A DNA stretch of 64,000 nucleotides from Malurus cyaneus samueli (Eukaryota > Chordata > Aves > Passeriformes > Maluridae), in assembly GCA_009741485.1 (NCBI GenBank), contig CM019218.1, positions 29,844,898 through 29,908,897 of the forward strand. Reading direction: 5' to 3'. The notes beneath the pieces are model-generated. The model worked only from the letters and a program-made list of their open reading frames with translations. It did not search any database and was not told the origin of the DNA. A program made the position numbers and the translations under genes. Below are positions 25,801-63,990 of the stretch, in pieces (within the stretch, counting starts at the first letter, position 1; every line of letters starts with the position of its first letter).

Positions 25801-27240
25801 AGTGGATGTTTAAGGATTTTGCCTCAGTGTGATGTTTTTCAGGCTATGTGTTTTGTTCAGTTGATGCCAGTGATATTTGTGCCAATAGTTGATATATTAA
25901 AAACATTCCTAGTACCTTACAAGCTGTCATTGTATGTGCAATACTCCATGGAGCAAATGTACTTTAGAGACCTATTTTTGTTGTCATTTGGTATGTCTCT
26001 AAGTACATGTGGGGGGTGTAATGCAGATCAGAGGCTCAGCCACATGATGTGTATGTAGAGGGGAACAGCTAACAGTTCTGTATCTCTCCAGAAACCATCC
26101 ACTCAACAATGCATAAAATAACAGCTTTTATAAAGTTTTGGGGGGGTTAAAAAATTAATTTTGAAACAAGACAATAAAATCCTATATGTGGATTTGTTCA
26201 TAGAGATGTCCTATGCAAAAGTATCCTTTGGTTGTGCTTTAAAGAGAAGTTGGGCATGGCCATTGTGTCTGCAGCACAATTTGTGGCTGTGATGCACAGT
26301 TTTCTTCTGCATTTTCTTCCCTCAAACCTTAAAGCACCATTGATCAACCTGATGTCATGCCATCACAGTTTCACTTTTCTATTTAAAATAAATAGCTTGC
26401 ATTTCAATCAGGGTATACTTTTAAAAAATATATGCAGTGTTGATTTAGAGTTTTCTAAGCTGTGGGAAATATAGTACCTACTCAGCTTTATTGCCTCCAC
26501 CTTGCATTTATTGCTGAACATTTGTTTTATTTATTTATGGTGAGAGTTTGCAAGGATGTGAAGGAGCATGGCTGTGCTTGTATGCAGACCAAGTCCTTAT
26601 TCCAGCCTATTCCACTGAATTATTTCCTCTCACTGGAAACCCTCCTGTTGCAGTGCATACTAGTCACTTTATTGACAGTTTTAGTCAAATGTTTATTGCT
26701 AAACTGTTGGGATTCTTGATTTTTAAAACTGTGTTTGGAACTTTTTACATTTATCTGGAGTGTTTGTGTTTTCTAAATCTGGCTAGAACAGTAATCTAAG
26801 AAGAGACTTACTTACAAATTTGCAGCATTACATTGTTCTAACTCTCCTGCAATCAAAGAAGAAAACCAGGGAGACCAGGTGGATACATTTTTCGGAGTTC
26901 ATAGGTATTTGATGTTGATTTAGTCTTTTAAGTGAGTGCTTTTATTGCATAGGTTTGAAGTTTTAAAATTGTCTCAATTTGAAAGACAGGTATCTGTCAA
27001 GGAAGGCGGGAGCATCCCTTGGAATGGGAAATGTGACACCCTTCCCTCTGAATTATTGTAACTTTGAAATGAAAGGGCTTTCAGGCAAAGATATGGGAAA
27101 AGGAATAACAGTTCTTTACCAGTATATATATGTACAGCAAGGCAGGCAAACAAACAACACCAAGGGCAGCAACAGCCCCAAAGCCCCGGAGCGCAGCGCC
27201 AGCCCCGTGTGGCTGCCGAGGCTTCCCCACTGTGCGGTAC
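19863..27240. other. GPHN: Intronic DNA, nothing recognised
   Basis: AT-rich intron with poly-A near 23640 and short open frames without family resemblance. GC content rises sharply only from about 27170, just before the minisatellite. Confidence 0.65.
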
Positions 27241-27244
27241 CTGT

Positions 27245-27263
27245 GCCGCCAGGGGGCGCTGTG
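27245..27263 (+). promoter_or_regulatory. Predicted CTCF site, first of the tandem array
   Basis: GCCGCCAGGGGGCGCTGTG contains the CTCF core in the forward orientation: CC, then CC-A-GGGGG-CGCT with a purine at the end. This is the type copy for the 17 identical sites; positions of all others are given in the array entry. Binding is inferred from the motif only. Confidence 0.75.
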
Positions 27264-27369
27264 GGCGGGTGCGATGGTTCCTGTGCCGCCAGGGGGCGCT
27301 GTGGGCGGGTGTGATGGTTCCTGTGCGCAGGGGGCGCTGTGGGCGGGTGCGATGGTTCCTGTGCCGCCA

Positions 27370-27390
27370 GGGGCGCTGTGGGCGGGCGGG
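27370..27390 (+). other. G-quadruplex motif in variant unit
   Basis: Four G runs (4, 3, 3 and 3) separated by loops of 6, 1 and 1 bases fit the usual G3+N1-7 pattern. It arises because this unit's spacer carries an extra GGGC. Confidence 0.6.
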
Positions 27391-27684
27391 TGCGATGGTC
27401 CTGTGCCGCCAGGGGGCGCTGTGGGCGGGTGCGATGGTTCCTGTGCCGCCAGGGGGCGCTGTGGCCGGGTGCGATGGTTCCTGTGCCGCCAGGGGGCGCT
27501 GTGCTCCTGTTCGATGGTTCCTGTGCCGCGGGCGCTGTGGGCGGGTGCGATGGTTCTGTGCCGCCAGGGGGCGCTGTGGGCGGGTGGATGGTTCCTGTGC
27601 CGCCAGGGGGCGCTGTGGGCGGGTGTGATGGTTCCTGTGCCGCCAGGGGGCGCTGTGGGCGGGTGGATGGTTCCTGTGCCGCCA

Positions 27685-27706
27685 GGGGCGCTGTGGGCCG
27701 GGCGGG
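27685..27706 (+). other. G-quadruplex motif in variant unit
   Basis: G runs of 4, 3, 3 and 3 with loops of 6, 2 and 1 bases, created by the GGGCCGGGCGGG spacer variant. Confidence 0.6.
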
Positions 27707-27767
27707 TGCGATGGTTCCTGTGCCGCCAGGGGGCGCTGTGGGCGGGTGGATGGTTCCTGTGCCGCCA

Positions 27768-27790
27768 GGGGGCGCTGTGGGCCGGGCGGG
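27768..27790 (+). other. G-quadruplex motif in variant unit
   Basis: G runs of 5, 3, 3 and 3 with loops of 6, 2 and 1 bases, from the same GGGCCGGGCGGG spacer variant. Confidence 0.6.
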
Positions 27791-27848
27791 TGCGATGGTT
27801 CCTGTGCCGCCAGGGGGCGCTGTGCCGCCAGGGGGCGCTGTGCCGCCA

Positions 27849-27871
27849 GGGGGCGCTGTGGGCCGGGCGGG
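27849..27871 (+). other. G-quadruplex motif in variant unit
   Basis: Same pattern as at 27768, following the last of the three abutting cores. Confidence 0.6.
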
Positions 27872-28025
27872 TGCGATGGTTCCTGTGCCGCCAGGGGGCG
27901 CTGTGGGCGGGTGCGATGGTTCCTGTGCCGCCAGGGGGCGCTGTGGGCGGGTGTGATGGTTCCTGTGCCGCCAGGGGGCGCTGTGGGCGGGTGCGATGGT
28001 TCCTGTGCCGCCAGGGGGCGCTGTG

Positions 28026-32323
<4,298 letters not shown>

Positions 32324-32502
32324 TTTAATTAAAATCTTACGCCTATTTGGCTGTGACTGACACCTGCAATAATACCTGGAGTTGTAAAACAACATTTGAT
32401 TAATCCTCTTACNTTTAATTAAAATCTTACGCCTATTTGGCTGTGACTGACACCTGCAATAATACCTGGAGTTGTAAAACAACATTTGATTAATCCTCTT
32501 AC
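32324..32502 (+). repeat. Perfect 89-base duplication around a single N
   Basis: Bases 32324-32412 and 32414-32502 are identical and are separated only by one N at 32413. This is the pattern left when two contig ends that overlap are joined without being merged, so it is most likely an assembly artefact rather than a real tandem repeat. Confidence 0.92.
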
Positions 32503-47143: not shown

Positions 47144-47163
47144 NNNNNNNNNNNNNNNNNNNN
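47144..47163. other. Assembly gap, 20 N
   Basis: Twenty N directly followed by a T run, suggesting sequencing failed in a homopolymer. The true length is unknown. Confidence 0.97.
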
Positions 47164-50881: not shown

Positions 50882-52118
50882 TGTTGTGGTTTAGAATGCT
50901 GGCCAAAAGCCAGGCACCCACAACACCTGCTCATTCGGTCTCCACCACCACCACACCGGGTAGAGAAGAGCAAAGAGAAAAAAACTAACAAAAAGGTTCA
51001 TGATTTGAGATAAGGAATGCGGAGGAAAACACTTGATGGACAAAACAGGCACTATTTAAATAATCAAGTGAATTTATTACTAACAAAGTCAGAGGAGGAG
51101 AATGAGAAATAAATTACAACCCTCAAAAACACCGATCTTCTCCCCACTCCCTCCCCTGTTCCCACATACAACAAAGCAGCAGGAACGGAACAGGGTGTGG
51201 GGTTGGTCAGTTCATCACCGGATCCTCTGTGACAGCTGAGGGAGAAGATTTCCTTCCCTTGCGTTGCCGTGGGGTCCCTCCCACGGGAGACAGTTCTGTG
51301 TGAACCTCTCCATCGTGGCTTCACTCTCACGAGTAGCACTCCACACACATCTGCTGCAGCGTGAGTCCCCCCACGGGCAGACAGTCGTGCCCAAACTGCT
51401 GCACCGTGGGGTCCCTCGTCCCCTGGGTGCAGTCCCAAGGCCAGGCTGTTCCATCTCGGGAGCAAGGCCTCTCTCTCCATGGCTCTCCTGCTGGACACAG
51501 CCCCCTTCCTGACGTCCACCCGCTCCGGCGTGGGGACCTCCCTCCTCCACGGGCTGCGGGTGGATCTCTGCACCCTCTGGCCATGGACCCCTGGCTGCAG
51601 GGGACAGCCTGCTCCACCATGGTCACCAGGGCTGCAGGGGACAGCCTGCTCCCCCATGTCACCATGGGCTCAGGGGGACACTGCTCCACCATGGCAGCTC
51701 CACCATGGTCACCAGGGCTGCAGGGGACAGCCTGCTCCACCATGGTCACCTGCAGGGGACAGCCTGCTCCACCATGCTCGTCACCACGGCCTGCAAAGGA
51801 ATCCCAGCTCCGGTGCCTGGAGCAGCTCCTCCCCTCATCCACTGACCTTGGTGGCTGCATCCTTCACATTTCTCAGCCTCCTCCACTGGCAAAACTACTC
51901 TGAGTGCCCCTTGTTTTGATTTCTTCGTAAATATGTTTTCACAGAGGTGTAACCACTATCTTTAATTGGCCCAGGTTTGGTCAGTGGCATGTCCATCATC
52001 CTCAGAGCCAACAGCAATTGGCTTTGCTGGACATGGTGGAAGCCTCCAGAAGCTTCTCACAGGCGCCATCTTTTTGGCCCCCCCACTTCCAAAAACTGGG
52101 CCAAGCAAAAGCAACACA
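50882..52118. mobile_element. Solo LTR, family B, long (ERVL-like)
   Basis: A 1,237-base element starting TGTTGTGGTTTAG and ending GCAACACA, flanked by the perfect 5-base repeat GTGAT (50877-50881 and 52119-52123). It is GC-rich in the middle and includes a minisatellite at 51594-51788. Near the right end, GGCGCCATCTT (52062-52072) is close to a YY1 site read on the minus strand. AATAAA occurs on both strands near 51075-51105, so the transcriptional direction is unclear. The YY1-like site near the right end and the minus-strand AATAAA near the left end would fit minus orientation. No gag or pol is present, so this is a solo LTR. The open frames of 146-197 codons inside come from its GC-rich repeats. 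Confidence 0.85.
51594..51788. repeat. Minisatellite inside LTR B, about 5 units
   Basis: Imperfect tandem units of about 33-37 bases (one longer) containing GCTGCAGGGGACAGCCTGCT followed by CCACCATGGTCACC. Units begin near 51594, 51631, 51667 (degenerate), 51717 and 51750. Confidence 0.85.
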
Positions 52119-58284: not shown

Positions 58285-58342
58285 GTTGGGTGGGACTATA
58301 TCTGCATACAAGATAGTACCAGACGAAATAGAAGAAATCAAG
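58285..58342 (+). CDS. GPHN: Gephyrin coding exon 3 (G domain)
   Basis: This 58-base exon lies between a TTTCAG acceptor and a GTACAG donor. Its first base completes the Leu codon begun at the end of exon 2, and it then reads LGGTISAYKIVPDEIEEIK, ending exactly on a codon boundary (phase 0). Joined to exon 2 it gives one uninterrupted gephyrin G-domain segment, about residues 48-67 by recall of human numbering. The Gly-Gly and the Val-Pro-Asp-Glu segment lie in the N-terminal half of the MogA-like fold, which binds molybdopterin and adenylylates it. The match in phase with the upstream exon across a 27.9 kb intron is strong support that both are real exons. The next exon was looked for downstream and not seen before the window ends. 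Confidence 0.95.
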
Positions 58343-63238: not shown

Positions 63239-63990
63239 ATGGAGAGGCAAGTGGCATACGACTTATTTACGTGCTTTCTAAGAAAGCTCCAAGCTAGGAA
63301 TACTGATCTCCGTAAGGAGTTACTTGATTTATTAAATTATGGTTGTGATCGGGGTTGTTTTCAAAACCCTCATTTAGTACACAAATTGTGTGAGTGGGAA
63401 AAGCTGGGAGATAAATGGCGGGTGGATCATGGCGAACTAGTGCAGTGCCAGGTGGAGAGAAAGGCGGTACGGCGGGCTGATGTGGTGCGTGGCGGGGGTC
63501 GGGGGTCTGCTGTGTGTGGGTGTGGGTGTCCCCTGCCCCCTGCTGTCTCCACTGTTGGGATGCCGTCGCCGGTCGCCGGGGGGCAAGCAGGTCTCCTCCG
63601 GCGGCTGCCCCGCCCACGCCAACGGCCTCCCTCCTACCAGAGCAGGAAGTCGCGGGATGGGGGGGGCCGGAGGTCCCTCGTCCGGGGGGTGTCCGGGTGG
63701 ATTCCGTCTCCCGGGGTGGGGGGGACGTATGGGCTGCCGTGGCTAAGGACTGCCTTAATAGTGGAGACAACGAGGGCCTAGATGCAATCAAGGAAGCAAT
63801 TAGGGAACTCAGGTTAGGTCTTAAGGAACAAGCCCAAGCCGCTCAACATCAGGTCCTAGCTGCTTTAGCGTCCTTGCAAGCTGCAGCCGCTTTCAGTTCT
63901 GGTCCCCTGTCCAGTGGCAAATCTGGTCACTTGCGGCGCCAATGCCGAGCCCAAGGACTGTGGTGCTGCCGATGCCAGTCCAGCTCCTAA
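63239..63990 (+). pseudogene. gag: Endogenous retroviral gag, frameshifted and missing capsid
   Basis: Gag is the retroviral structural polyprotein (matrix, capsid, nucleocapsid). The start codon at 63239 opens a segment of about 83 residues that looks like an avian ERVK-type matrix N-terminus (starts MERQVAYDLFTCFLRKL). In a G-rich stretch around 63480-63530 the coding frame shifts; the open frame continues to 63781 but is no longer gag-like. In the other frame there follows a Pro/Ala-rich part, a helical Gln/Ala-rich part (about 63780-63890), then a remnant zinc knuckle (GKSGHLRRQC) and a second Cys-rich piece, with a stop at 63988-63990. No capsid domain or major homology region fits in the roughly 150 residues between, so an internal deletion is inferred. 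The first Cys pair of the first knuckle is gone. It is non-functional. Confidence 0.75.

Follow-up and report, generated by a model that had tools for sequence, protein, structure and literature searches.

What is a minisatellite made of CTCF-like motifs, all pointing the same way, doing inside the gephyrin gene GPHN, and where does it come from? The first-pass annotation saw in it an isolated array, similar to DXZ4 and particular to the GPHN locus. We analysed the array in its window (the whole 64-kb stretch of DNA under study, C70:29844898-29908897) and searched the 1.067-Gb assembly for relatives. The reading that we favour, and consider fairly likely, is that the array is an expanded CpG-rich segment of an ERV LTR lying in GPHN intron 1, with amplified and predicted CTCF-competent sites. 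Coordinates of the features are collected in Table 1.

Table 1. Features at and around the array (positions in the window)
Feature	Position	Strand	Basis
Truncated LTR of a dispersed retroviral family	26970..28051		TG left edge at 26970, right arm missing
LTR left arm	26970..27235		90.5% identity to L012 left arm; left-arm match E 7e-42
Minisatellite, 21 units with forward CTCF cores, 17 strong candidate sites	27236..28028	+	Tandem Repeats Finder, motif counts, matrix scan
Core triplet, 18-base spacing, also in arrays of L010 and L012	27806..27860	+	Motif positions, array comparison
Last LTR remnant past the array	28029..28051		Homology end at 28051
Lone weaker CTCF-like site facing the array	30054..30072	-	Score 13.9 bits; p 7e-6 with uniform composition, 1e-6 with that of the window
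GPHN exon, gephyrin residues 22-48	30345..30425	+	100% identity to gephyrin protein
GPHN exon part, gephyrin residues 49-67	58286..58342	+	100% identity to gephyrin protein

Tandem Repeats Finder reported a period of 40 bases and 19.8 copies, which places the array among minisatellites (tandem units of about 10-100 bases) and not among DXZ4-type macrosatellites with kilobase-sized units. The motif GGCGCTGTG, which defines the units, occurs 21 times in the window, always on the + strand and never on the - strand, and core-to-core distances in the array are mostly 38-45 bases. The 19-base core GCCGCCAGGGGGCGCTGTG has 17 exact occurrences from 27245 to 28025, again all on + and none on -, exactly the 17 identical copies within 781 bases originally described. 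We scored the units against the CTCF matrix MA0139.1 (column sums 908-913), and call a match at p<1e-5 a strong site. Seventeen of the 21 units scored 18.3 bits out of a possible 26.1 (uniform background p 4e-7, window background p 6e-9), in agreement with the proposed identity of the motif. The other four carry core deletions (near 27328, 27368, 27531 and 27683) and fail p<1e-5. There are therefore 21 units but 17 good sites: the 21 same-direction sites of the first-pass annotation stand as units on one strand, and four of them are lost as sites. Outside the array, the 64-kb window holds 7 matches at p<1e-5 on its own composition and 3 on a uniform background.

Such a score is not a chance product of GC-rich composition, as judged by shuffles of the 40-base unit: none of 20,000 mononucleotide shuffles and none of 20,000 dinucleotide shuffles reached the array score, the best of the latter attaining 17.9 bits and 121 of them reaching 12 bits. 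An optional upstream CTCF motif resembling CAGCTGTTCC, at a linker of 2-7 bases, is reported for 13-15% of sites (PMC12885311). The units carry CGATGGTTCC upstream (GTTCC, 4-base linker), an attractive candidate in which 6 of 10 bases fit, but which was not significant with shuffled linkers (P 0.09). Within the window array core and linker did not differ: 11 changes fall in the core and 14 in the linker, in line with their lengths (p 0.84). Because core and linker mutate alike, no purifying selection on the core is visible.

Other properties of the region were recorded in passing. Four G-quadruplex-type motifs (G3, loops 1-7) occur at 27236-28040 on the + strand and none on the - strand, the + strand being that of the GPHN transcript sequence. 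A second minisatellite at 51593-51776 (37-base unit, 4.8 copies) has CTCF-like matches too, though less strong ones (window background p 7e-7 to 8e-6). At the GC-rich window end, an ORF at 63239-63781 has no Pfam match at 0.1; its start looks gag-like. As for the array itself, none of 7992 scored candidates supported protein coding at E<=0.001, and comparison with Pfam gave nothing at 0.1. An Rfam scan gave nothing at gathering thresholds. A scan of viral contigs gave one single-copy match, in an unrelated IMG/VR contig, which we take to be chance.

The location in GPHN was confirmed by two gephyrin exons on the + strand; the first of them, which encodes residues 22-48, begins 2.3 kb downstream of the array. 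GPHN exon 1 was not detected within the 64-kb window, and the placement in intron 1 is assumed from the known structure of the gene. Concerning assembly quality, two perfect 90-base copies at 32324-32502 meet at a single N (32413), probably an unmerged assembly join, and a gap of 20 N lies at 47144-47163. The array unit count may thus be inexact.

The array does not stand alone at GPHN: it sits inside a dispersed LTR. The window left arm, besides its close match to copy L012, shows 59.5-75.7% identity to 13 other left arms. LTR copies begin abruptly at a common left edge close to TGTCTTGGTTTGAAAGACAGG, with unrelated sequence before it, and those that are complete also end alike, in a right edge of type TAACCTCCAACA. 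The family has TG...CA ends, of which the window copy shows the left one only; no match was found for its right arm, LTR homology stopping at the remnant just past the array. Perfect 5-base target duplications flank 3 of 12 copies tested (L010, L017, L027) and, in a separate sample, 5 of 15 copies with both ends found (L037, L039, L042, L043, L044), four further copies of that sample having 4 of 5 duplication bases and six having 1-3. None can be seen at the window copy, since its right end is gone. Where an LTR is complete and has no large array, its length is mostly 0.9-1.2 kb, and 0.6 kb in one case. Shared edges, TG...CA ends and 5-base duplications are the marks of solo LTRs. No internal retroviral region was found; in the one stretch examined between a pair of LTRs (L081, 2.5 kb of C965) there were only short ORFs and a further LTR left arm. 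Target duplications of 5 bases fit ERVL, and their length here only hints at ERVL (class III). That the array is one of several CTCF-site arrays grown inside a retroviral LTR is well supported by these sequence comparisons.

How widely are cores and arrays distributed? A genome-wide search for the exact 19-mer GCCGCCAGGGGGCGCTGTG gave 63 occurrences at 25 places, against none for its reversed control; the array is thus not unique. When the window and the 24 other places were compared with the LTR arms, 16 of the 25 gave strong matches, 2 gave weak ones (E about 1e-11, both on C731, with 1.1 kb of sequence each) and 7 gave none. Eight LTR copies were seen with three or more strong sites: the window copy (WIN) and L012 with 17 each, L010 with 16, L040 with 4 and, over the whole fetched locus, L079 with 8, L069 with 7, and L068 and L078 with 3 each. 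At p<1e-5, a pair of cores 40-60 bases apart was seen in each of L011, L019, L020, L024, L025 and L027, and a single core in L015, L016, L017, L021, L026 and L029. For a view of the family by left arm, 40 copies were scored from 1033 first-look candidates, and 38 were examined after removal of the query's own locus and the window. No strong site was present in 31 (including L063, which is largely N), while four had one, two had two and one had four; the strong site is therefore a minority trait in this left-arm sample.

Three CAGGGGGCGC separated by gaps of 7-37 bases occur 77 times genome-wide versus once in the reversed control, and the 77 occurrences group into 12 places. Seven of these belong to the LTR family (the window, L010, L012, L068, L069, L070 and L040). 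The remaining five, two on C161 and three on C985, have no LTR-family match, so this genome also contains CTCF-like minisatellites that did not arise from the LTR. The pair pattern, AGGGGGCGC twice, gave at least 148 occurrences versus 16, a count that takes in GAGGGGGCGC repeats, which are not CTCF-like. On C161, L071 (3727500-3733500) and L072 (3738000-3744000) are inverted, convergent arrays about 10 kb apart; each has 20 CAGGGGGCGC in 37-base units and no match to the LTR family, with 30 and 34 CTCF matches at p<1e-5, respectively. On C985, a 245-kb contig, L073 (232000-238000) and L074 (242000-245426) comprise three arrays, the last near the contig end; their CTCF-like units measure 18/27 bases and point both ways.

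Comparison of left arms gave access to the kinship of the array copies. Those of the window copy and L012 are 90.5% identical, versus at most 75.7% to the others aligned, and are joined on the tree with 100/98. Their K2P distance is 0.105 over 269 bases; the avian substitution rate being near 3e-9 per year, this corresponds very roughly to 17 million years. The two copies, equal in strong sites, lie on the same contig (C70), 2.04 Mb apart and convergent. L010, on another contig, has the linker CGATGGTTCCTGTG and the 18-base triplet in common with both, and one window unit carries the L010-type linker. The tree joins L010 to L011 (98/95); by plain identity it is nearer L029 and L021. Since the linker is shared although the tree separates L010, either an array-bearing copy transposed or arrays exchanged units, and a transfer of units between these loci is possible.

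More generally, arrays turn up in different parts of a tree built from 59 left arms, which has many open forks and unsettled bootstrap values. The nine array-labelled copies (among them L070, whose four CAGGGGGCGC fail the matrix) need 8 changes of state; shuffled labels need 8.5 on average, and 216 of 500 shuffles were as low as the observed 8. Starred branches alone force at least 5 array-state changes. Judged from these sequences, the predicted CTCF site came with the LTR family and not from GPHN, and the segment that carries it has been amplified more than once within the family.

Several relatives share a contig: besides the pair on C70, these are L010-L011 (C29), L015-L016 (C1), L019-L020 (C45), L024-L025 (C89) and L029-L076 (C178). 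Relatedness was taken from the left-arm tree and, for L019-L020, from identity comparison. Members of the six pairs lie 0.06-2.3 Mb apart with their main homology limited to the LTR, and L015-L016 also share a 141-base inverted stretch. Such clustering would be rare under random integration; it suggests local gene conversion or local dispersal. An excess of convergent pairs was considered and dropped: two pairs are convergent, three tandem and one divergent, without bias.

We propose the following course of events. An ERV LTR would have inserted into GPHN intron 1 and subsequently lost its right arm. It would have carried one or two forward CTCF cores, near-copies 40-60 bases apart offering a substrate on which unequal exchange or slippage could have enlarged the segment to 21 units; other copies would have expanded too. 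The relationship between array and LTR was established by comparison, and the amplification process we infer. In the absence of methylation and of repressive chromatin the resulting sites should be good enough for CTCF, and an unmethylated array would probably be occupied. Such an occupied array would be expected to stall cohesin and, with loops forming between convergent sites, to favour contacts toward higher coordinates, through GPHN.

The array may instead be an inert minisatellite, the product of neutral slippage or unequal exchange, from which methylation or H3K9me3 excludes CTCF and which contributes nothing to folding or insulation. We hold this to be a serious possibility, if a doubtful one. 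The core without sign of selection, the 31 of 38 sampled LTR copies without a strong site and the CpGs within the cores all fit with it, ERV chromatin at the array may be silenced, and SETDB1-dependent exclusion of CTCF has been reported in mouse (PMC10762014). It accounts less well for the CpG observed/expected ratio, 0.76 in the window array versus 0.15 in the flanks, or for the somewhat higher CpG retained by site-bearing LTR copies: outside the sites, the ratio in the left-arm sample was 0.56 for the 7 copies that have a site and 0.40 for the 30 that lack one (one-sided p 0.02, one copy omitted for N), a contrast that age or GC content alone could explain. The CpG richness of the LTR segment also fits a role as viral promoter or enhancer repeats, with the CTCF match secondary and a putative promoter or enhancer within GPHN today. 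Direct repeats are well known in retroviral U3 regions, and many units contain GGGCGGG, which we take to be an SP1/KLF-like GC box. We nevertheless judge this origin unlikely, the CTCF core being the part retained across arrays with different linkers.

Could the array instead be maintained at GPHN as a strong DXZ4-like boundary, in line with the first-pass annotation? With 17 strong same-direction sites in 781 bases the idea is appealing, but the array lies in an LTR insertion, related arrays occur elsewhere in the genome, the motif belongs to the LTR family, the core is not conserved beyond the linker within the array, and unit size and setting are unlike those of DXZ4; we consider it very unlikely. 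Least probable of all is a copy number created by the assembly, the true array being shorter or longer. The N join between perfect duplicates and the 20-N gap point that way, against which differing units follow in mixed order and arrays of similar size occur at other places of the same assembly. We thus retain the expanded LTR segment. To go further and regard the LTR family as a mobile, self-amplifying boundary element, whose forward site would grow time and again into same-direction arrays that bind CTCF and alter folding around each insertion, with the window and L012 arrays anchoring a loop that would enclose the GPHN body and its downstream neighbours, is quite unlikely on present evidence.

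The number of sites needed for a strong boundary has so far been asked with inserted or reporter copies, the dose tests cited for tandem CTCF sites having placed 2-4 copies at Sox2 or put 1-3 into plasmids (PMC12885311). The LTR family described here, with copies bearing 0, 1, 2, 3, 4, 7-8 and 16-17 strong sites, constitutes a natural dose series in one genome, directly readable by CTCF profiling and Hi-C. If the sites are bound, CTCF-spreading repeats would extend beyond the mammalian SINEs and LTRs of the work cited here, and site growth within a repeat would be an added route to strong anchors. A Hi-C comparison of 12 species reports fewer LTRs than expected at TAD boundaries, a rule to which some non-mammals are exceptions (PMC9077971). 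By term search, the main text of a study of passerine ERVK solo LTRs contains neither 'CTCF' nor 'ERVL' (PMC11009239), and titles and abstract openings, with few subscription papers covered, gave no LTR-borne same-direction CTCF array in birds. Within that literature, anchors borne by transposable elements are already known, and array growth within an LTR is the new part.

Among known systems, the closest in origin are LTR41 and other mammalian loop anchors borne by transposable elements (PMC6979391), where, as here, an ERV LTR supplies the CTCF motif. A copy of LTR41 anchors a loop in human cells (PMC6979391), and the anchoring elements of mammals bear mutational traces of hypomethylation, to which the weak CpG signal of our copies is comparable in type. 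LTR41 differs in having one site, tested by deletion (PMC6979391), whereas up to 17 strong copies per LTR are predicted here from sequence. Mouse B2 SINEs likewise form a repeat family spreading a CTCF motif over the genome; they are SINEs, and the parts of that report drawn on here describe no tandem growth of sites (PMC6979391). Tandem CTCF sites function as insulators in mammals (PMC7087399, PMC12885311), and in the Pcdh and Igh clusters same-direction sites act as directional insulators (PMC7087399); the array shares their uniform direction. Those sites are spread through gene clusters, unlike those of the array, mostly 18-45 bases apart in one repeat. Finally, DXZ4 and mouse Dxz4 share with the array tandem units that hold a CTCF motif, a CTCF-homologous stretch lying in a VNTR within each monomer of mouse Dxz4 (PMC3491370). 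The units of DXZ4, a macrosatellite of the X chromosome that is linked to X inactivation, are far larger, while the array at GPHN consists of 40-base units in an LTR.
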